From assembly GCF_029882185.1 (NCBI RefSeq), contig NZ_JAOULD010000015.1:1-33818 (forward strand): DNA of 33,818 nt, in the 5' to 3' direction. Shown piece by piece: positions 13,787-24,095 of the stretch. The notes beneath the pieces were generated by a model. That model saw only the letters and a program-made list of their open reading frames with translations, was not told the origin of the DNA and searched no databases. Numbering within the stretch: position 1 is the stretch's first letter; every line of letters begins with the position of its first letter. The stretch is from Candidatus Nitrosopumilus sp. GTDB lineage: Archaea > Thermoproteota > Nitrososphaeria > Nitrososphaerales > Nitrosopumilaceae. The translations under genes and the position numbers were made by a program.

Positions 13787-14470
13787 ATGACTGAACTAAA
13801 GATTCAGCACATCCTAACTCTTTCATATTTACTCTCAAAAGGTGCAAAATACAACTATGTTTCTATTACTACATCTTCATTGGGTAAAAACATAAAAAAA
13901 TCACAACAAGCTGCCTCAAAACATCTCCTTGAATTAGAACAAAATCAATTCATTGAGAGGATAATTAATGGAAGAAACATCTCAGTCAAAATTACTCCAA
14001 AAGGATTTTCTGAAATGGTAAAACTCTCTTCAATTTTACAAAAAAGCCTTGATTCTTCACCATCTCATGTTGAACTCAAAGGTACACTAGTTTCTGGAAT
14101 GGGTGAGGGTGCATATTATATGGGATTGAAAGGTTATACAAAACAATTCGAATCAAAAATAGGTTATGTTCCATATCCTGGAACTCTTAATGTCAAACTA
14201 GATCAAAAAATCCATCAAGAAGCAATCAAGCAATTTGAAACTTTTGATGGTGTAAAAATTAAGAGCTTCTCTGATGGAAAAAGAACCTATGGATGGGTCA
14301 AATGCTTTAATGCAAAACTGAATAACTCTACAAACTGTGAATTGATAATTTTAGAGCGTACACATCATGATGATTCTATAATCGAATTGATTTCAAAAAC
14401 TTGTCTGAGAAAAATTGCTAAATTAAAAGATGGCTCTAAAGTGTCAATTAAAATTCCAATAGATTCCTAA
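13787..14470 (+). CDS. ribK: CTP-dependent riboflavin kinase with N-terminal winged helix
   Basis: 227 aa. The N-terminal ~90 residues form a MarR-like winged helix (SQQAASKHLLELEQNQFIER, wing NGRNISVKITPKG). The C-terminal domain is the archaeal RibK barrel, with GMGEGAYYMGLKGYTKQF and PGTLNVK as family motifs. It phosphorylates riboflavin to FMN using CTP. The fused DNA-binding domain in such proteins suggests FMN-dependent autoregulation (RbkR type). It follows dnaG by 8 nt. Its stop overlaps by 4 nt that of the convergent ribL, the next enzyme of the pathway. Confidence 0.92.
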   Translation: MTELKIQHILTLSYLLSKGAKYNYVSITTSSLGKNIKKSQQAASKHLLELEQNQFIERIINGRNISVKITPKGFSEMVKLSSILQKSLDSSPSHVELKGTLVSGMGEGAYYMGLKGYTKQFESKIGYVPYPGTLNVKLDQKIHQEAIKQFETFDGVKIKSFSDGKRTYGWVKCFNAKLNNSTNCELIILERTHHDDSIIELISKTCLRKIAKLKDGSKVSIKIPIDS

Positions 14471-15084
14471 ATCCCGTGAATGGATTCACCATATTCTTTT
14501 TGAATTTTAGAGCTTGAACTTTCAGGTATTGGAGACTGTAACCTTGCAACTATTGCATCAAGCTCAATTTTCTTACATCCTTCTGTAATGAATTTTTCTT
14601 GATGAATCTGATCATATCCTAGTGCAATAATTTGTGGTTTGACGTGATTCACTGTTTTGAAAATATCATCTTCCTGACCAATTAAACAAAGATCTACCAT
14701 TGACAATGAATTCACTAATTCTTGTCTTTGTTCTTGTGAATGCAGTGGTCTTCTTTTCTTCATCTTTACTGCTGTATTATCAGTTGCCACCACTACGACT
14801 AGTATGTCTCCTAGCTCTTTTGCTGCATTTAATGTGTAAATGTGACCTGGATGAATAATGTCAAAAACTCCTCCTGCTAAAACTACACATAATGAATTTC
14901 TCCCTGCATTTGTGAGTGTTTTTCTATCTTCATTTACTAATTGATTTTTAATTAATTCATCAATTTTTGAATCGATCATGTCTTCAGAAAATATGGTCTT
15001 TTTCTTGATTATTTTAGATACCTCTTTTCCTTCAATCTGACATACGTACATGATAGATAAGATGGTTTTTTCACTTTGCTCCAA
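14467..15084 (-). CDS. ribL: FAD synthetase-type nucleotidyltransferase with N-terminal HTH-like extension
   Basis: The C-terminal ~140 residues are a cytidylyltransferase-like domain with GGVFDIIHPGHIYTLNAA (HxGH site) and ALGYDQIHQEKF, matching archaeal RibL, which adenylates FMN to FAD. Before it lie about 65 residues (TILSIMYVCQIEGKEV, MIDSKIDELIKNQLVNEDRK, LTNAGRNS) that look like a small winged helix and are not part of the usual ~150-aa RibL. The start is TTG 15084; no ATG is available before residue 13, and coding-like sequence continues a little upstream without a start codon. It is convergent with ribK, so the two FAD-forming enzymes meet tail to tail. Confidence 0.85.
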   Translation of the reverse strand: MEQSEKTILSIMYVCQIEGKEVSKIIKKKTIFSEDMIDSKIDELIKNQLVNEDRKTLTNAGRNSLCVVLAGGVFDIIHPGHIYTLNAAKELGDILVVVVATDNTAVKMKKRRPLHSQEQRQELVNSLSMVDLCLIGQEDDIFKTVNHVKPQIIALGYDQIHQEKFITEGCKKIELDAIVARLQSPIPESSSSKIQKEYGESIHGI

Positions 15085-15128
15085 TGTTTCTTCTATTTTT
15101 GACCCTCTCTTTAATTCATCGCTAAAAA

Positions 15129-16166
15129 TTACATCTTTGGTTCAAGGCCTTTTGCCAATCTCAATGCATCAACAAGACCATCTGCATAACCAATACTTAA
15201 TATTGCTACCTCATCTTGATCATCTTCGAGAAATTTTTCTGCATCTTTAACATATAGTTCAGCATTTTCTAAAATAACTTGGAATTCTTTCTGGTCTTTG
15301 TATAGGGGCTCTACCTCTTCAAGTGCTTCTCTTACCATTGGGACATATTTTTTCATCATTTGAATTGAAATCTTTTTTGTTTTTTCTGTATTGTCAAATG
15401 GTTCGTCTATACATTGACCAAGTATTTTCAATGCATCTGATTCTGTGAAATGCAATCTTCCTGGAATTATTACTGTATGGGGTGGCTTTCCAAAATCTGT
15501 TTTCTTTAAACTGGATATTTTTCCTGAAATAATGGACTGATCTTTGAATCCTATCCTTGATGCAACTATGACATATGTTGATGAATCAATTACATTTCTT
15601 ATTTGCCCTTTTTCAGTTTCTAAGAGTCCATTTAATGCATCCTTTGGATCTAGGAAAAAGTCTTTGTCTTGATTATATTCTAAAAGAAGTACTGTGTGAT
15701 TTCCCTCTATGATATTTTTGTATATTACATAATATGGAGTTGTCAAAGATTTCATTTCGCTCATAATTGTTGCAATTCTTCCCACTTTGTAAAAATGCAA
15801 ACCACATTCTCCTATCATGGAAGTAAGTGATGAAGACGCATGAATGGAGTGTGTTTTGATTTTTTCTTCAATGGCTCTTGTTCTTAATTCAATGTGAGTC
15901 GTTGCAATGTATGGATCCCCATATGCTAATAATGCCACTTTCTTTTTCTTTGCGTTTTTTAAAATTTCATTGCCATCTTCAACAAGCCATCTTTTTGCCA
16001 GTTTGAATTCTCCTTTTGTAGCATTTTTGATCTTTACTAAATCTGATTTTCCAATTGGACTGGTAAATTGCTCCAAATAAACAATATCTGCTTTTGATAA
16101 AACATCTAATGCCTCACTTGGAATTGATTTGAATCCAGAAATTCCTAAACCTACAAACCAGAGCAT
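15129..16166 (-). CDS. dphB: Diphthine synthase with C-terminal DUF357-like extension
   Basis: The first ~255 residues are the SAM-dependent methyltransferase that builds diphthine on the elongation factor 2 histidine: LWFVGLGISGFKSI, DIVYLEQFTSP, ALLAYGDPYIATTH, then HTVIIPGRLHFTE near the end. At 345 aa it is about 80-90 residues longer than usual. The tail (YVPMVREALEEVEPLYK through SIGYADGLVDALRLAKG) resembles the stand-alone archaeal DUF357 helical family. This looks like a genuine fusion in one open frame. It overlaps the 3' end of lysK by 16 nt, so it is translated from the tail of the lysine operon. Confidence 0.9.
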   Translation of the reverse strand: MLWFVGLGISGFKSIPSEALDVLSKADIVYLEQFTSPIGKSDLVKIKNATKGEFKLAKRWLVEDGNEILKNAKKKKVALLAYGDPYIATTHIELRTRAIEEKIKTHSIHASSSLTSMIGECGLHFYKVGRIATIMSEMKSLTTPYYVIYKNIIEGNHTVLLLEYNQDKDFFLDPKDALNGLLETEKGQIRNVIDSSTYVIVASRIGFKDQSIISGKISSLKKTDFGKPPHTVIIPGRLHFTESDALKILGQCIDEPFDNTEKTKKISIQMMKKYVPMVREALEEVEPLYKDQKEFQVILENAELYVKDAEKFLEDDQDEVAILSIGYADGLVDALRLAKGLEPKM

Positions 16167-17293
16167 TGCTGAATTTTTCTATCGTGTAGTCTTTTTAAAT
16201 GCTGTAGTGTTTTCTTGAGAATTTCAATTCCTCTCAAATATTCATCAATTGAGACTTTTTCGTCAATTGTATGGGCTTCATGCGGATCTCCTGGACCATA
16301 TGTCACTACAGGAATATTCCATTGATTACCTAAAACATTCATGTCTCCTGTACCTGTTTTTCTGATAAGAGTTGGTCTTGAATGTTCTACTTCCATAACT
16401 CCAAGAGTAAATGCTCTGACCAATGGGGATGTGTGAGATGCCTCAAATGGCTCTGTTTCATCAAGAATTGAATAAAATGCTTCAACTTCTCTTCCCTGGG
16501 CAATTTCTTTGACCAAAGTTGCAATTTTTTGTTCAATGATTTTGCAGTTCATATCTACAGGAATTCTAATGTCAAATGTAGTTTCACAATCTTTTGGTGT
16601 CACATTATGACTTGTCCCCCCTTTGATTTCTGTCATGGTAACTGTAAGTAACATTCCTTTGCTTCTATTTTCTTGATTTGCTTCTAATCTGTCTTTGAGT
16701 TCTTTTACAAAAATCATTGATTCTTGAATTGCATTTTTTGAAAGCCATGGTGCACTAGCATGAGAACTATCATCCACACTAATTTTGAGATTGATTGCAA
16801 GTCTCCCTTTGTATGCAATAGTGACTTGTTTAATTCCACTTGGTTCTCCAAAAACTGCATAATCAATTCCCATCTTTTTCTTTACGAGATTTTTGATTCC
16901 TGTGGCATTGCCTTCTTCATCTACAGCTCCTACAAAAAATACGGTTCCGTTGTTGTTTTGAACTGATGCTGCAGCAAACAACATTGCCATTAACGGTGCT
17001 TTGGCATCAGATGCACCTCTGCCATACAATGCATCCCCTTCCTTTCTAACTTTGATTTTTCCTGGAACTACATCCATATGTCCACATAACATAATTTTTG
17101 GAGAGCCTGAACCTTTCTTTGCTATAATATTTCCCACTTCATCAATCTGGATATCTTCAAAACCTAAATCATCACATTTGTCCGCTAAAAATTCTGCCAT
17201 TGGTTTTTCACTCAATGATGGCGTGTAAAGTCTGAGTGACTTCTCTAGCATTTTTACTGCAAACCTTGGTGTTATTGTGAAATTGCTGTCCAA
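16151..17293 (-). CDS. lysK: [LysW]-lysine/[LysW]-ornithine hydrolase (M20 family)
   Basis: 380 aa M20 zinc peptidase. Metal-site motifs in order: MLCGHMDVVPG, GRGASDAKAPL, GAVDEEGN (general base Glu and ligand) and FGEPSG. The dimerisation domain is in the middle and the last ligand is in YGPGDPHEAHT. It frees lysine (or ornithine) from the C-terminus of the carrier LysW, the last step of the carrier-bound pathway. It starts at TTG 17293, 3 nt after the stop of the LysX ligase gene, so coupling is likely. A shorter in-frame start exists but would lose conserved N-terminal sequence. Acetylornithine deacetylase is the closest alternative; lysW/lysX context decides. Confidence 0.9.
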   Translation of the reverse strand: MDSNFTITPRFAVKMLEKSLRLYTPSLSEKPMAEFLADKCDDLGFEDIQIDEVGNIIAKKGSGSPKIMLCGHMDVVPGKIKVRKEGDALYGRGASDAKAPLMAMLFAAASVQNNNGTVFFVGAVDEEGNATGIKNLVKKKMGIDYAVFGEPSGIKQVTIAYKGRLAINLKISVDDSSHASAPWLSKNAIQESMIFVKELKDRLEANQENRSKGMLLTVTMTEIKGGTSHNVTPKDCETTFDIRIPVDMNCKIIEQKIATLVKEIAQGREVEAFYSILDETEPFEASHTSPLVRAFTLGVMEVEHSRPTLIRKTGTGDMNVLGNQWNIPVVTYGPGDPHEAHTIDEKVSIDEYLRGIEILKKTLQHLKRLHDRKIQQCSGL

Positions 17294-17296
17294 TTC

Positions 17297-18139
17297 TTAC
17301 TTTTCTATATTTAGCGCGTAATCTAGCATTAAGGAAGGAATGTCTACTTCACAAACTCTTACTGTGTTTTTGTATTCTGTTGTATTGTTTACTTCGTGCA
17401 CTACAAGTCCTTTCTCATCACTTTCCATTAAATCTACACCTACGATATCTCCTTGAATTGCATGTTTTGCCTTGATGCACATTTCCTCCATTTCTTGTGT
17501 AACTTTACATGGATCAGCTGTTCCTCCTAATGCCATGTTAGTTTTCCAATGCTTAGAAGAACGATAAATTGCAGCTACAATTTTGTCTCCTACCATAATT
17601 GCTCTGATGTCTCTTGGAGGTCTTTTCACAAATTCTTCCAAATAATGAACCTGATAAATTGGATACATGTTTTCTCTACTTTCAATAATTCCTTCAGCTG
17701 CATCTCTGTCATTTAATTTTGAAATTAGTCTACCCCAACTACCAACTGTTGGTTTGATTACTTTTGGATATCCTTGTGAATCTAATGCTTGTAAGGCTGC
17801 TTCTTTTGAAAATGCTACAGTTGCATCAGGTGTTGGCACTCCGAATTTTTTTAGTAACGTATGTGTAAATAATTTATTTCCTGCAAAAACTCCTGTGTAA
17901 AGACAATTGATCACTTTGACACCAATTCCTTCAAGAGCTGCAGTTGAATGAAGATTTCTATAGTAACTAACACATCTTTGAATTACAACTCCATAGTCTT
18001 CAGGTTTCTTTTCTAAATCTATTGCCAGTTTCTTACAATCAACCATCTGAATATTGATGTTCTTTTTCTTACCTGCTTCTAGCAGAGCTTTTTCTTCCCA
18101 ACGGATGGTATCGTAAAGAATGGTAACGTCAGGACTCAC
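17297..18139 (-). CDS. lysX: LysX-type LysW-amino acid ligase (probably lysine branch)
   Basis: 280-aa ATP-grasp ligase that joins alpha-aminoadipate (or glutamate) to the C-terminal side chain of LysW. Motifs: KVIKPTVGSWGRLISKL, PRDIRAIMVGDKIVAAIYR, KTNMALGG and a late VHEVNNTTEYKNTVR. I start at GTG 18137-18139, whose first bases overlap the stop of lysW (GTGA), rather than TTG 18148; this gives classic stop-start coupling. Neighbours are homocitrate synthase and lysK, which points to the lysine branch, while the paralogue at 23071-23928 sits beside argG. Substrate choice is inferred from context only. Confidence 0.85.
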   Translation of the reverse strand: MSPDVTILYDTIRWEEKALLEAGKKKNINIQMVDCKKLAIDLEKKPEDYGVVIQRCVSYYRNLHSTAALEGIGVKVINCLYTGVFAGNKLFTHTLLKKFGVPTPDATVAFSKEAALQALDSQGYPKVIKPTVGSWGRLISKLNDRDAAEGIIESRENMYPIYQVHYLEEFVKRPPRDIRAIMVGDKIVAAIYRSSKHWKTNMALGGTADPCKVTQEMEEMCIKAKHAIQGDIVGVDLMESDEKGLVVHEVNNTTEYKNTVRVCEVDIPSLMLDYALNIEK

Positions 18140-18303
18140 TGTCCCCAATCCTCGCCAACCGTTTGGGCAGGCTTTAGATCGAAACCGTTTGAACCTTTAG
18201 ATAGTTCAAAACTGGCTCCACATTCTGGACATGTTACGATTTCTCCTTCAAGTGCATCACTTGGGACAGAAATATCTGCATCACATTCTTCACATTTTGA
18301 CAT
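18136..18303 (-). CDS. lysW: LysW carrier protein, second copy, ending in Gln
   Basis: 55 aa. Two zinc knuckles CEEC (residues 4-7) and CPEC (25-28) and the acidic tail TVGEDWGQ identify LysW, the amino-group carrier protein. In characterised LysW the chain ends EDWGE, and the side-chain carboxylate of that last Glu is where the amino acid is attached. Here the last codon before TGA is CAG, giving Gln. The other copy at 23928-24095 ends in the expected Glu. Either the Gln is deamidated, this carrier works differently, or there is a single-base change. The stop overlaps the GTG start of the ligase; homocitrate synthase ends 22 nt upstream. Confidence 0.88.
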   Translation of the reverse strand: MSKCEECDADISVPSDALEGEIVTCPECGASFELSKGSNGFDLKPAQTVGEDWGQ

Positions 18304-18325: not shown

Positions 18326-19492
18326 TTATTTATCATTAATTATCTTTTTTTCAAGTCTATCTTCTAATGGGATCTCTATTAGATCACCCATTCTTAGACC
18401 CTTTAATCCTGCAGCAACTGCTTTTGCACCTTCATCGTCTTTTTCCAGTCCCAATAATGACATCAAGTATGCTGCACCTGTTTTTCCAGCTAGTTCTCCA
18501 AATACTATTCTTCTTCTATTCCCAACTGCTCTAGGAGGAATTGGCTCATAGGCAGCAGGATTCTTAAGAATTGCAGCAAGGTGTGTACCTGCCTTGTGTT
18601 TGTATGCTGATGAACCTACAATTGGTTTAGAATCATATGGTTTGATTGAGGTGTATTCTTCAATTAATCTAGATAAATCAAGTAACATGTCTAATCTGAA
18701 ATCATTTGGTGATTTGTAAAGATAGGTTAATGCCACTGCAACTTCAGCAAGTGGAGGAATTCCTGTTCTTTCTCCAATACCATCAATTGTAGTATGAATT
18801 TGATCAACTCCTGCATCACATGCTGAAAATGCATTAGCAACTGCAAAACCAATATCGTTATGAACATGTGCATCTAATGGGACATCTACTACTTCTCTTA
18901 CTTTTTTAACAAAGTTATACATTCCAATTGGACGTAAAATACCAACAGTATCTGGGAGGCTTATTCTGTCTACTCCTGCTTCTTCAATTGCCTTACACAC
19001 TTTGAGTAAAAATTCTGGCTCTGCTCTACTTCCATCCTCAACTGTAAATCTAATTTTTAATCCATGAGATTTTGCATATTCTACTGTTTCAACTGCTCTC
19101 TCAAGTGCTTCTTCTCTTGAAATTCTTAATTTGTCTTTAAGATGAATGTCTGAAATTCCTAAATATGCTGCACACCACTTTGCATCACAATCTAATGAAG
19201 TGTCAATGTCTTCTTTTAGTGCTCTACCATGTGAGACAATGTCTGCCTTTAATCCTTGTTTGATTATTGTTTTAGTTGCTTCTTTGTGATCATTTGAAAC
19301 TACTGGAGAAATTTCAATTTGATCTACTCCGAAATAATCAAGCATCCATGCAATCTGAATTCTTTGTTTGTTTGTAAATGAAACTCCTGGATGCTGCTCT
19401 CCCTCTCTAAGTGTACTATCTAAAATTCTGATTTTCTTTGGATTTTTGTCGTATGCATTATACAGATTTGCATAGTGATTCGGATCTTTCAT
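18326..19492 (-). CDS. lysS: Homocitrate synthase
   Basis: 388-aa DRE-TIM metallolyase. Key signatures are RILDSTLREGEQHPGVSF near the N-terminus, DAHVHNDIGFAVAN and TTIDGIGERTGI. It condenses acetyl-CoA with 2-oxoglutarate to homocitrate, the first step toward alpha-aminoadipate and so lysine. Isopropylmalate or citramalate synthase are relatives, but they are usually longer with a LeuA regulatory domain, and the adjacent lysW-lysX-lysK favours homocitrate. A TATA-like GATATAAA at 19519-19526 lies about 31 nt ahead of the ATG, so this gene starts a second transcription unit in the lysine/arginine locus. Confidence 0.9.
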   Translation of the reverse strand: MKDPNHYANLYNAYDKNPKKIRILDSTLREGEQHPGVSFTNKQRIQIAWMLDYFGVDQIEISPVVSNDHKEATKTIIKQGLKADIVSHGRALKEDIDTSLDCDAKWCAAYLGISDIHLKDKLRISREEALERAVETVEYAKSHGLKIRFTVEDGSRAEPEFLLKVCKAIEEAGVDRISLPDTVGILRPIGMYNFVKKVREVVDVPLDAHVHNDIGFAVANAFSACDAGVDQIHTTIDGIGERTGIPPLAEVAVALTYLYKSPNDFRLDMLLDLSRLIEEYTSIKPYDSKPIVGSSAYKHKAGTHLAAILKNPAAYEPIPPRAVGNRRRIVFGELAGKTGAAYLMSLLGLEKDDEGAKAVAAGLKGLRMGDLIEIPLEDRLEKKIINDK

Positions 19493-19610: not shown

Positions 19611-20029
19611 TAGGCTACCTTTCTCAAAATAATGACAGTGTTAGTGTCTACTACTCCTGGAATCTTCCTTAATGCATCAATGCTGCTATTGATCTCTGCA
19701 ATGTTTGTAGCACTCATAATTGTTGTAATGTCATATTGACCTGTAATTTCATAAACTGTTTTGACTCCTTCTAATTTTGCAAGCTTTAATGATACTTTGG
19801 ATGTATCAGTTGCAGAATCCACTGAAACCAAGACAATTGCACTAGTTGCATTCTCTTCTCCAATTTCCAAAGTGAATTTCTTAATTGTTCCACTGTCTAC
19901 TAGATTTTTTACACGTCTTCTAACTGCTGATTCTGACAGTTTGAGTTTTTTACCTATATCTACAAATGATTCTCTAGAATCTTCTTTTAGATAACCGATG
20001 ATTTTTTCGTCTACTTTATCTTTGAACAT
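19610..20029 (-). CDS. Lrp/AsnC-family regulator (LysM-like)
   Basis: 139 aa: an N-terminal helix-turn-helix (DEKIIGYLKEDSRESFVDIG, KLSESAVRRRVKNLVDSGTI) and a C-terminal RAM ligand-binding domain (AIVLVSVDSATDTSKVSLKL through VVDTNTVIILRKVA). Its ATG lies inside the end of lysJ (14-nt overlap), so it is translated with the biosynthetic genes. Sulfolobus LysM, an Lrp-family lysine sensor, sits in an equivalent locus. By that analogy this protein may control lysine/arginine genes, including the lysS promoter about 100 nt downstream. Confidence 0.88.
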   Translation of the reverse strand: MFKDKVDEKIIGYLKEDSRESFVDIGKKLKLSESAVRRRVKNLVDSGTIKKFTLEIGEENATSAIVLVSVDSATDTSKVSLKLAKLEGVKTVYEITGQYDITTIMSATNIAEINSSIDALRKIPGVVDTNTVIILRKVA

Positions 20030-21197
20030 CTCTTTTTTGCTCCTCTTCAGTTAATACGGAATCAAGAGCATGTAAAACTTTTGTTATGTCTTCTTTAGAT
20101 ATTACTAGTGGCGGAAGAATTCTTAGAATATTTCTTCCTGAATACAACATTAAGACTCCTTTTTCCATTAATGCCATTAAAATATCTCTAACTTCAAATT
20201 TCATCTCTATTCCAATCATGAGGCCCTTTCCTCTGATTTCTCTTATCATAGTATGTTTTTCTTTTAGTTTTTCTAACCCTTCTCTGAACACCATTCCCAT
20301 TTTTTCAGAATTTTCAATCATTCCGTCTTCTGTAATTGCTTTGAGTGCTGCAGTTCCTGCTGCACAAGAGATTGGATTGCCTCCAAATGTAGATGAATGC
20401 TCTCCTTTGCTTATTGCAGCTAAAATGTCTGGTTTTACCAGAGTTGCCCCCATTGGCACACCGCCTGCAATTCCTTTTGCAAGACACAAAATATCAGGTG
20501 TGGTATTCCAATGCTCACATGCCCATAATCGTCCGGTTCTACCTAAACCAGCTTGAATTTCGTCAAAAATTAACACGATTCCTTTTTCATCACAAAGCTT
20601 TCTGACTTCTTGCAAAAATCCGTCTGGTGCAACAACAATTCCACTTTCGCCTTGTATTGGTTCTAAAATTACAAATGCAGTGTCTTCATCAATTTTCGAA
20701 CGCAATGATTCTATATCACCATATGATGCAAATGAAACTTTTTCAACGAGTGGAGCAAAAGCTTTTCTGTATTTTGGATTAAATGTTAATGATAGTGCTC
20801 CAAATGATTTTCCATGATAGGAACCTTTCATTGCGACCATTCCTTTTTTGCCTGTAAACTTTCTTGCAAACTTCATTGCAGCTTCGATTGCTTCAGCTCC
20901 GCTGTTGTTTAGATGAACTTGCGTTAATCCCTTTGGGGCTAAACCAATCAATGTTTTCAAAAACTCTTCTCTTGTTTTGTTATATAATGAACTATGTACT
21001 GTTATGATTTTATCAATTTGTTCTTTTATTGCATCATTAACTCTTTTGTTTTTATGACCAACTAAAGCTACCCCGTATCCTCCCATACAATCAATATACT
21101 CTTTTCCATCTATGTCCCAAACATGAGAGCCGACTCCTCTTTCAATTGTTACTGGGAATCTCTGATAGAGATTACCCATGTATTGATCTTCACTCAT
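20016..21197 (-). CDS. lysJ: [LysW]-aminoadipate/glutamate semialdehyde aminotransferase
   Basis: Class-III PLP aminotransferase, 393 aa from ATG 21197. NNSGAEAIEAAMKFAR binds phosphate, FDEIQAGLGRTGR carries the PLP-binding Asp, and Lys241 in LAKGIAGGVPMG is the Schiff-base lysine. It transaminates the carrier-bound semialdehyde to LysW-lysine or LysW-ornithine using glutamate, serving both branches if the pathway works as in Sulfolobus. The ATG overlaps the lysZ stop by 8 nt (ATGAGTGA); a TTG six bases earlier is the less likely start. An acetylated-substrate ArgD is the alternative; lysW in the operon argues for the carrier-bound substrate. Confidence 0.92.
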   Translation of the reverse strand: MSEDQYMGNLYQRFPVTIERGVGSHVWDIDGKEYIDCMGGYGVALVGHKNKRVNDAIKEQIDKIITVHSSLYNKTREEFLKTLIGLAPKGLTQVHLNNSGAEAIEAAMKFARKFTGKKGMVAMKGSYHGKSFGALSLTFNPKYRKAFAPLVEKVSFASYGDIESLRSKIDEDTAFVILEPIQGESGIVVAPDGFLQEVRKLCDEKGIVLIFDEIQAGLGRTGRLWACEHWNTTPDILCLAKGIAGGVPMGATLVKPDILAAISKGEHSSTFGGNPISCAAGTAALKAITEDGMIENSEKMGMVFREGLEKLKEKHTMIREIRGKGLMIGIEMKFEVRDILMALMEKGVLMLYSGRNILRILPPLVISKEDITKVLHALDSVLTEEEQKRDVQR

Positions 21198-21993
21198 GTT
21201 CAATCACCGTACAATTATCATGTGCAATAGCTGATGATATTGGATTTTTTCTTTGACCATTTCCAATCAAAGCTTCTTTGACTCCCATATCTAATGCTTC
21301 AGTGGATGCCAAAATCTTTTTTTCCATTCCTGGTCCAATTTTTGGCCTAATCTCTTTTGCTTCAGCCAATGTTAATTTTTGAACTAGTTTATCGTCCATT
21401 AATAATCCATCCACATTTGTGATGAATAATACTTTATCACATCCTACCTTACCTGCTACATATGCTGCTGCTCTGTCTCCGTCAATGTTGAGAAATTCTG
21501 ATTCTTCACTCATTGCTATGGGTGAAATAACTGGTGTAAGCCCCTGATCTAGGAGGGATTTGATGAATTTTGCATTGACTTCGCGAATTTTTCCAGTATA
21601 TCCGCCATCAATTGCTTGTTTTCTGCCTTTTTCATTTACAATTAATAATTTCTTTTTTCTATCAGCTTCGATTACTTTGGCATCTACTCCTGAAAGACCA
21701 ATTGCATTAATGCCGTTTTTCTGAAGCATTTGAACAATTGTTTTGTTAATTCTACCTGACATAACCATAGTGAAAATTTCTGCTGTCTCCTTGTCTGTGT
21801 ATCTGCTTTTGATACCGCTCGGAGAGGTTACAAATTTTGGTTCTTTTCCTAATTGTTCACATACTTTGGTGACTTCTTTTCCACCGCCATGAACAATAAT
21901 TATTCCCTCTGTTTCTGCTACTTTTTTAATATCTGAAATTGTTGATGGATGTAAATCGTCTACTACACTTCCGCCGATTTTAATTGTGATCAT
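21190..21993 (-). CDS. lysZ: [LysW]-aminoadipate/glutamate kinase
   Basis: 267-aa amino-acid kinase of the ArgB fold: KIGGSVVDD at the N-terminus, VHGGGKEV, NIDGDRAAAYVAG and GPGMEKKILAS. It phosphorylates the carrier-linked aminoadipate or glutamate side chain. It is encoded 2 nt after the lysY stop codon and overlaps lysJ at the other end, so the three are translated together. Only one kinase gene is seen, so it probably serves both the lysine and arginine routes. Confidence 0.92.
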   Translation of the reverse strand: MITIKIGGSVVDDLHPSTISDIKKVAETEGIIIVHGGGKEVTKVCEQLGKEPKFVTSPSGIKSRYTDKETAEIFTMVMSGRINKTIVQMLQKNGINAIGLSGVDAKVIEADRKKKLLIVNEKGRKQAIDGGYTGKIREVNAKFIKSLLDQGLTPVISPIAMSEESEFLNIDGDRAAAYVAGKVGCDKVLFITNVDGLLMDDKLVQKLTLAEAKEIRPKIGPGMEKKILASTEALDMGVKEALIGNGQRKNPISSAIAHDNCTVIEHE

Positions 21994-21995
21994 TT

Positions 21996-23042
21996 CTAAA
22001 CTGGAGTGAGTGGGGTGTATCTCAGTCCGTCCATTTCATCAAAACCACACATTACATTCATGTTTTGAATGGCAGAACCTGCTGCACCTTTCATTAAATT
22101 ATCTGATGCAGACAATGCAATCAATCTGTTATTGTCTTCATCTAAATCAAATCCTATATCACAAAAGTTTGAACCTACTAAGAATTTTGGATCTGGGAAT
22201 TTGTATAATCCTTTTTTGTCTCTGATCAGTCTGATGAATTTCTCTTCTCCATAAGCTTGACGATATAGTTTCCATAATTCTTTTTCTTCAATATCTTTTT
22301 TCAGGAATGTGTGGTTTGTACACAAGATTCCACGAACTACATCTACTGCATGTGGACTCATTGAGACATGAATTTTCTTTCCTGCAATTTCGCTGAGCTC
22401 TTGTTCAATTTCACCGGTGTGTCTGTGCTTTGCTGGTTTGTATGGTCTGATTACCCCTGCACGCATTGCATGTGCTGTTCCTGAACCAGAACCTGCACCT
22501 GATGAACCAATCTTTGAATCTACTACAATATGTTCAATATCAATAATGTCATTTCGAATTAATGGCGCCAGTGCCAGCATTGATGTTACGGCCATACATC
22601 CTGGACAAGAAACAAGTTGTGCTTTTTTGATTTGTTCTCTGTGTAATTCCGGAACTCCGAAAACTGATTTTTCTAAATAATCTGGATGTGGGTGTTTCCA
22701 ACCATACCATTTATCATATGCTTCTTGATCATGCAATCTGTAATCTGCACTCAAATCAATCACTTTGATTCCTCTGTCGTATAGTGCTTTGACAATTTCA
22801 GTCGCTGTTCCATGTGGTACTGCTGTGAAGACCAGATCACATTTGTCAGTTAATTTATCATAATCTAATTCTGAGAATGTGAGATCGGTAAATCCCTTCA
22901 AACTTGGTTGGACTCTGTGTAGATATTCCCCTACATGTTGTCGTGATGTGACCATTGCGATCTCGACATCTGGGTGGTTGACAAGAAGACGAAGTGTTTC
23001 TCCTCCTACATATCCAGATGCTCCAACAACTCCTACTTTCAT
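21996..23042 (-). CDS. lysY: [LysW]-aminoadipyl/glutamyl phosphate reductase
   Basis: 348-aa ArgC-type reductase. GASGYVGGETLRLL binds NADPH, Cys149 in VSCPGCMAV forms the thioester, and HRHTGEIEQEL and SPHAVDVVRGI are family segments. It reduces the phosphorylated carrier-bound substrate to the semialdehyde. A TATA-like sequence in the short gap to the preceding ligase gene suggests an internal promoter for lysY-lysZ-lysJ and the regulator. Confidence 0.92.
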   Translation of the reverse strand: MKVGVVGASGYVGGETLRLLVNHPDVEIAMVTSRQHVGEYLHRVQPSLKGFTDLTFSELDYDKLTDKCDLVFTAVPHGTATEIVKALYDRGIKVIDLSADYRLHDQEAYDKWYGWKHPHPDYLEKSVFGVPELHREQIKKAQLVSCPGCMAVTSMLALAPLIRNDIIDIEHIVVDSKIGSSGAGSGSGTAHAMRAGVIRPYKPAKHRHTGEIEQELSEIAGKKIHVSMSPHAVDVVRGILCTNHTFLKKDIEEKELWKLYRQAYGEEKFIRLIRDKKGLYKFPDPKFLVGSNFCDIGFDLDEDNNRLIALSASDNLMKGAAGSAIQNMNVMCGFDEMDGLRYTPLTPV

Positions 23043-23063: not shown

Positions 23064-23072
23064 GTATAATTT
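23064..23072 (-). promoter_or_regulatory. Internal TATA box ahead of lysY
   Basis: GTATAATTT on plus (AAATTATAC toward lysY) is centred 26 nt from ATG 23042, and it overlaps the ligase stop codon. It probably drives the shared Y-Z-J genes independently of argG. Confidence 0.45.
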
Positions 23073-23928
23073 ATTTTCTTATGTATCTTAGAGCAAATTC
23101 TACCATTTCTTTTGGTATATTTCGCTGTGCAACTCTTGATAATCCTTTGAATTCTACTGTGTTGTTTACTTCGTGGATAACTAATCCATTTTTCTCATCT
23201 TCCATCATGTCAATTCCTAAAATTCCTCCTCCCATGGCTTTGGATGCTTTAGATGCCATATCTTCCATCTCTTTTGTGATCTCACAAAGCTCTGGATCTG
23301 CCCCTAGTGCAATATTTGTCTTAAATCCTCCTGAAGATTTTCTATACATGGCAGCAATTGGCTCATCCCCTACCGTGATAACTCTAATGTCTCTTGGAGG
23401 TCTCTTGATTAATTCTTGTAAATAGTAAATTCTATCATGAGGGCTATCTGTAATGTCTCTTATTTCAAAAACTGCCTCCATTGTATCTTTGTCCTTAAGT
23501 GGCAATACCCCTCTTCCCCAACTTCCTATGACTGGTTTGATAACTAGGGGGAATCCTACTTTTTCCAAGTTTTCTGTTGCACTTTCACTTGAAAATGAAA
23601 AATATGTCTTAGGTGTTGGAATATTGTTCTTTTTCAAAAGCAATGTCATGAACATCTTATTTCCACAAATGTTTGCAACTTCAAATTTGTTTAGTACTGG
23701 AATGTCCATGAATTCAAGACTGGCTGTAAAATGGAGTCCTCTAAAATAACTAACACATCTTTCTAAAACAATATCTCCTAAATCATAATCTTCTTTTTTG
23801 CTATCTGTATTGATTTGAGTGATCTTTGCATCTAACATCAATACATCGTGACCTAATTCCAATGCTTCTTTTTGTAGCATCTTTTCTTCCGCTCTTAGAC
23901 GGTCAAAGACAATACAAACTTTTGACAT
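23071..23928 (-). CDS. argX: LysX/ArgX-type LysW-amino acid ligase (probably arginine branch)
   Basis: 285-aa ATP-grasp ligase paralogous to the one at 17297-18139. It has PLVIKPVIGSWGRGVLPL, PRDIRVITVGDEPIAAMYR, KTNIALGADPELC and VIHEVNNTVEFKGLSRV. KTNIALGA replaces KTNMALGG at the substrate-side segment, a difference that may relate to substrate choice. It follows argG and a normal lysW and precedes the shared Y-Z-J genes, so I infer it loads glutamate onto LysW for ornithine and arginine. The ATG overlaps the lysW stop by one base (TAATG). The symbol is a context-based suggestion. Confidence 0.82.
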   Translation of the reverse strand: MSKVCIVFDRLRAEEKMLQKEALELGHDVLMLDAKITQINTDSKKEDYDLGDIVLERCVSYFRGLHFTASLEFMDIPVLNKFEVANICGNKMFMTLLLKKNNIPTPKTYFSFSSESATENLEKVGFPLVIKPVIGSWGRGVLPLKDKDTMEAVFEIRDITDSPHDRIYYLQELIKRPPRDIRVITVGDEPIAAMYRKSSGGFKTNIALGADPELCEITKEMEDMASKASKAMGGGILGIDMMEDEKNGLVIHEVNNTVEFKGLSRVAQRNIPKEMVEFALRYIRK

Positions 23929-24095
23929 TACTCTCCCCAGTCTTCGCCTACAGTTTCTGCTTGTTTTAGCTCAACATTTGATCCGTCTTTTTTTGCGATT
24001 TCAAAGTCAGCACCACAATCAGGACAGGAGACAATTTCTCCTACTGAGGCATCGTCTGGGATGTTTATTGTTGCATCACATTCTGGGCAGTTCAT
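23928..24095 (-). CDS. lysW: LysW carrier protein, canonical copy ending in Glu
   Basis: 55 aa with zinc knuckles CPEC (residues 3-6) and CPDC (24-27), an acidic middle, and the canonical C-terminus TVGEDWGE, whose last Glu carries the growing amino acid. The ATG overlaps the argG stop (ATGA) and the stop overlaps the ligase ATG (TAATG), so argG-lysW-argX is tightly coupled. Compared with the copy at 18136 it shares the SVGEIVSCPDCG-like core and the EDWG tail. Confidence 0.92.
   Translation of the reverse strand: MNCPECDATINIPDDASVGEIVSCPDCGADFEIAKKDGSNVELKQAETVGEDWGE

Follow-up and report, generated by a model that had tools for sequence, protein, structure and literature searches.

A LysW carrier protein encoded with a C-terminal glutamine in Nitrosopumilaceae and other Thermoproteota, and its possible deamidation by LysK

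In the described LysW carriers, the γ-carboxylate of the last Glu is joined to the amino group of the substrate, forming an isopeptide bond (PMC9303977). The GSWGR motif of the ligase recognizes the EDWGE tail, and the E54A mutation in the haloarchaeal carrier (argW of Natrinema gari) abolished arginine synthesis and resulted in arginine auxotrophy (PMC10433800). By the accepted rule, a LysW has to end in Glu; in the organisms considered here a LysW, and sometimes every copy, ends in Gln, whose side chain offers no carboxylate to activate. A C-terminal Gln is also found in Pup, where it must become Glu before ligation through the γ-carboxylate, and some lineages encode Glu. Dop carries out this deamidation of Pup-Gln and also cuts Pup conjugates, for which it is retained in species whose Pup ends in Glu (PMC3511204). 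The string EDWGQ occurred in no paper of the open literature searched, and a search there for LysW with Nitrososphaera gave nothing relevant. In a metabolic model of Nitrosopumilus maritimus the LysW route was filled in, and the last residue drew no comment (PMC6038301). Gln-ended LysW occurs in microbes that rank among the most abundant of the ocean and soil.

Two LysW genes at the lysine and arginine locus

The window, meaning the whole stretch of 33,818 nucleotides that was analyzed, contains two LysW genes, and the source genome (102 contigs, 99% complete) contains exactly these two. The open reading frames and codons confirmed the claim of an earlier note on this DNA that one protein ends in EDWGE and the other in EDWGQ, the latter through a CAG codon before the stop. 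The relevant features are as follows.

16151..17293 (−): LysK, [LysW]-lysine hydrolase of the M20 type, candidate deamidase (PDB 5xoy, E=1.1e-52; TIGR01902, 277 bits, cut-off 163)
17297..18139 (−): LysX, ATP-grasp ligase loading LysW, with the GSWGR motif (TIGR02144, 325 bits, cut-off 275.6; PDB 3vpd, E=2.3e-62)
18136..18303 (−): LysW of the lysine unit, proposed pro-carrier, 55 aa, EDWGQ end (NF041070, 88.6 bits, cut-off 75)
18136..18141 (−): final Gln codon with the stop codon, CAGTGA; LysX starts at a GTG that overlaps this stop
18326..19492 (−): homocitrate synthase-like protein, first step towards aminoadipate (TIGR02146, 381 bits, under the cut-off of 413.6; also isopropylmalate synthase models)
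20016..21203 (−): LysJ aminotransferase (TIGR00707, 441 bits; NF042418, 408 bits, under the cut-off)
21190..21993 (−): LysZ, LysW-aminoadipate/LysW-glutamate kinase (NF010662, 302 bits, cut-off 194)
21996..23042 (−): ArgC/LysY reductase (TIGR01850, 417 bits)
23071..23928 (−): ArgX-type ligase beside the Glu carrier (TIGR02144, 288 bits; position)
23928..24095 (−): LysW of the arginine unit, EDWGE end (open reading frame translation; passed NF041070)

The 18136..18303 protein has the two CxxC pairs and the small zinc-ribbon fold sequence of a LysW/AmCP carrier, and it is encoded with a ligase and the LysZ, LysY, LysJ and LysK enzymes. It departs from these carriers at the C-terminal Glu that is loaded on its γ-carboxylate, in place of which Gln is encoded (tail TVGEDWGQ; codons GAG GAT TGG GGA CAG TGA). 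The arginine LysW ends in TVGEDWGE. Both proteins scored above the cut-off of the NCBIfam carrier model NF041070 and under that of TIGR01206. Judged by its homology and context, the 18136..18303 protein is a LysW with the last residue changed.

The Gln-LysW gene is flanked by the homocitrate synthase-like gene and by LysX and LysK, the unit to which the earlier note had assigned it; the identity of the homocitrate synthase rests on this context. The Glu-LysW gene is flanked by ArgG and the ArgX-type ligase, after which come ArgC, LysZ and LysJ. The start of the arginine LysW and the stop of ArgG overlap by four bases (24092-24095), and this overlap, together with that of LysX and the lysine LysW stop, suggests that the carriers are translationally coupled to their neighbors. 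The CAGTGA overlap with the LysX start was kept in Nitrosopumilaceae and missing where lineages use TAA or TAG stops. It was rejected as a constraint on the last residue, because it fixes only the third base as G, still allowing GAG, and because Gln also occurred with TAA and TAG stops. After LysK lie two genes (14467-16166) that we take to resemble those for diphthine synthase (Dph5) and a RibL-type cytidylyltransferase. Across the Nitrosopumilaceae loci read, both kept their linkage to the lysine genes, and in another family (f3, below) only the Dph5-like gene was kept beside them.

The last residue of LysW across Thermoproteota

Because a single C/G change would suffice, the earlier note had allowed for a sequencing error or a strain-specific mutation. 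LysW loci were fetched by protein search with the last residue left free. In the first 111 loci, where some contigs appeared twice, once from each of two collections, 104 of the 111 tails ended in Gln; the 7 with Glu included the second LysW of the window. No third residue was seen at this position in loci fetched in this way. Gln-stop orthologues were present in single-contig genomes and in named strains (Nitrosopumilus sp. Nsub, Ca. Nitrosopumilus salaria BD31 and Nitrosarchaeum sp. BD3). When 400 genomes of the class were surveyed with codon-exact patterns, 263 had a Gln LysW, and all surveys together placed Gln-ended LysW in several hundred genomes. Reversed-pattern controls gave almost no matches (3/398 genomes in the phylum-wide sample described below). 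Error and strain mutation are refuted by these results, and we assign them practically no probability.

Across lineages the Gln codon was CAG or CAA and the stop was TAA, TAG or TGA. Because codons and stops vary, we concluded that the residue, and not the DNA string, is conserved. Recoding of the stop codon was rejected, since the stop type varies while Gln stays last. Two matches were discarded: that in G471 (CAATAG) was not a LysW, and the second match in G288 (CAGTGG) had no stop after it, and only the other match in that genome scored as LysW.

In Nitrosopumilaceae, the lysine copy nearly always ended in Gln and the arginine copy nearly always in Glu. The regularity for which the earlier note had proposed an alignment of this family, one copy always ending in Gln, therefore held for nearly all lysine copies, with exceptions that had Glu in both copies (G114, G148, G149, G161 and G169). 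G244 and G245 had Gln in both. At one further locus (L269, G005) the lysine LysW was lost, and the sole LysW, at the arginine position beside LysX and ArgX, ended in Glu. Orthologues ending in Glu had been named in the earlier note as grounds for diagnosing an error or a strain-specific mutation; they do occur, in the five genomes above, but from their positions on the tree they are rare switches within a long-conserved Gln lineage. Among 95 distinct LysX sequences of this family, a minimum of 2 Glu/Gln changes was needed, compared with 15 at the wobble position of the glycine codon before it, or 3 when only purine/pyrimidine changes were counted; this comparison is rough, because the wobble changes were mostly A/G transitions whereas Glu/Gln requires a transversion. 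The Gln in Nitrosopumilaceae is probably not simply drifting.

The other ammonia-oxidizer families (f2 to f4, their naming guessed from kinship) differed in their patterns. In f2, genus g23 had lysine Gln and arginine Glu, and G305 had Glu in both copies. In f3, both copies ended in Gln in G297, G303, G304, G289, G353, G364 and G436; G300 and G393 had Gln in the arginine copy and Glu in the lysine copy, and G292 and G389 had the reverse. Genus g24 of the same family (G288, G293 and G296) had lost the arginine LysW, kept ArgX, and retained one LysW with a Gln end, so that a single Gln-LysW must serve both ligases (L239, L240 and L241). In f4, all 58 matches, from 35 genomes, ended in Glu. Five f4 loci (L248 and L265-L268) had LysW with no adjoining homocitrate synthase-like gene in the cluster. 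At L249 (G336), the arginine LysW and ArgX were both absent from their usual place in the cluster, and the single LysW ended in Gln.

A phylum-wide sample contained Gln LysW in families f32, f37, f55 and f58, and restriction of the trait to ammonia oxidizers was thereby rejected. The scope is thus wider than the earlier note expected, extending to the arginine copy and to families outside the ammonia oxidizers. Mixed states occurred within genus g118 (Gln in G553 and G573, Glu in G499 and G533) and within genus g134 (Gln in G561, Glu in G526). The f32, f37 and f55 genomes searched had a single LysW each. G458, a genome of one contig, had one LysW, ending in Gln, in an ArgC-LysZ-LysW-LysX-LysJ-LysK cluster. 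LysW was present in three plasmid records, and no relative was found in virus contigs. In a tree built from 79 thinned LysX sequences, the neighboring LysW switched between Glu and Gln at least 10 times, with 8 changes forced by well-supported branches, and on an ArgX tree of 44 sequences it changed at least 3 times with G244 and G245 left out; both were quick trees with some long branches.

In several single-contig genomes every LysW ended in Gln, whether two copies (G297, G303 and G304) or one (G288, G293, G296 and G458), and Gln-only genomes kept the pathway enzymes. The idea that only the Glu copy functions, the Gln copy being inactive, therefore fails there, and lysine synthesis through the other carrier, an option offered in the earlier note, cannot be general. 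A related explanation, that Gln-LysW stays unloaded as a decoy, regulator or structural partner of LysX while a Glu copy carries all the substrate, agrees with the one Glu copy of most Nitrosopumilaceae; being already refuted for the Gln-only genomes by their full enzyme set, it seems to us quite improbable. We infer from these genomes that Gln-LysW is covalently loaded with aminoadipate or glutamate.

In archaea, tRNA-Gln is generally loaded at first with Glu, which is then amidated. Given so general a route, a minor share of Gln codons might be read as Glu, and a small pool of LysW-Glu might suffice. Such misreading would mean that the bulk of an essential carrier is inactive, and it would not explain the long conservation of Gln; we consider it highly improbable.

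Partner enzymes and the proposed deamidation

Because genomes with Gln alone keep the whole pathway, either Gln is converted to Glu after translation or the chemistry is different. Alignment of 143 Gln-associated and 22 Glu-associated LysX sequences revealed no column that separated the two states; the GSWGR motif was kept in 165 of 165, and the Glu-associated LysX sequences of Nitrosopumilus were 96% identical to Gln-associated ones. No separating column was found in the LysK, LysZ and ArgC alignments. Position 98 of LysJ (Phe/Leu) was considered as a tracker of Gln-only genomes and rejected, because it follows lineage. Outside the set of 165, a LysX-like ligase beside a Gln LysW (L279:9000-10004, G537) reads GSHGR.

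A different chemistry could bypass the side chain and attach substrates through an ordinary peptide bond to the α-carboxylate of the terminal Gln, which is how RimK-type ligases work. LysX is itself a member of the RimK family of α-L-glutamate ligases, and the α-carboxylate is free in the Gln and Glu forms alike. However, new geometry would be needed in LysX, LysZ, LysY, LysJ and LysK at each of the at least 10 switches, whereas near-identical LysX enzymes serve both forms and no column separates them; this route is accordingly improbable. Coordinated change in five enzymes per switch was not seen, and conversion of Gln to Glu needs one hydrolase. Pup-like deamidation, as put forward in the earlier note, thus appears to be the most economical reading.

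We propose that the EDWGQ LysW functions as an amino-group carrier but is synthesized as an inactive pro-form. The Gln side-chain amide would be hydrolyzed once to give Glu, LysX (or ArgX) would then load the γ-carboxylate, and LysZ, LysY and LysJ would act on the carrier-bound intermediate. LysK would free lysine or ornithine and leave LysW-Glu, which could enter later cycles with no deamidation. LysK would also be the likeliest deamidase, because its normal reaction hydrolyzes a γ-amide formed by this C-terminal residue (with R-NH in place of NH2); the primary amide would be the smallest version of its substrate. The Gln residue, its conservation, its repeated switching, the Gln-only genomes and the unchanged partner enzymes are direct observations; that Gln-LysW is a pro-carrier deamidated to Glu, most likely by LysK, we regard as having an even chance of being correct. 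If deamidation does occur, LysK is probably the enzyme responsible.

LysK scored above the cut-off in 13 of 13 genomes searched, 12 of which carry Gln LysW, and TIGR01902 identified just one protein in each of G303, G244, G245 and G336. The metal-site residues H72, D96, E126, E127, E150 and H341, assigned by analogy with M20 enzymes, were invariant in 40 sequences. LysK occurs in Glu-only genomes too, and its presence therefore does not discriminate between the states. Deamidation by some other amidase or glutaminase encoded elsewhere would fit the same genomic evidence, and M20 enzymes vary in the amides they accept. Against this, no amidase was common to the clusters of Gln genomes that were compared, no shared deamidase was found in cluster gaps outside the ammonia oxidizers, and switching within a genus favors an enzyme already present in every lineage; we consider another amidase unlikely, although the least so of the alternatives.

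If LysK simply tolerated Gln, near-neutral switching would be expected in all lineages, but Nitrosopumilaceae strongly retain Gln and f4 lacks it. This weighs against the proposal, and some advantage or barrier would be needed to account for it; in ammonia oxidizers Gln may, for example, stop the loading of new carriers before LysK is present.

If deamidation primes LysW, an essential pathway has a hidden and possibly regulated step; if it does not, the chemistry of LysX differs from the accepted view. The broader proposal, that lysine and arginine synthesis in ammonia-oxidizing archaea and several other Thermoproteota starts with LysK-run carrier deamidation, is more tentative, with the odds slightly against it. 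It would make this a second, independent case like that of Pup and Dop, the logic of one hydrolase that activates and releases having arisen twice.

Comparison with known systems

The LysW/ArgW carriers of Thermus, Sulfolobus, Thermococcus and haloarchaea (PDB 3vpb, 3wwl and 5k2m) resemble the lysine LysW of the window in length, in the two CxxC pairs and in the acidic EDWG tail, and they are likewise encoded in an operon with LysX, LysZ, LysY, LysJ and LysK; they end in the loaded Glu, whereas the window protein ends in Gln. LysK of the window aligns along the length of the described LysK (PDB 5xoy, with the E value given above) and keeps the metal-site residues, the proposed difference being an additional deamidase activity. 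RimK-type ligases and the pearlin carrier peptides share C-terminal peptide extension on a scaffold, and LysX is a RimK-family enzyme, but they extend the α-carboxylate whereas LysW uses the γ-carboxylate.

The likeness to Pup and Dop of actinobacteria lies in a small carrier with a Gln end and with Glu in sister lineages, as found here. Pup is a disordered protein tag and LysW a zinc protein with metabolites as its cargo, and no homology between them is known. The relatives of the window protein are LysW proteins, and we claim no membership in the Pup family. The logic of one hydrolase with two jobs would, if LysW is deamidated as proposed, fit LysK too, with different proteins.
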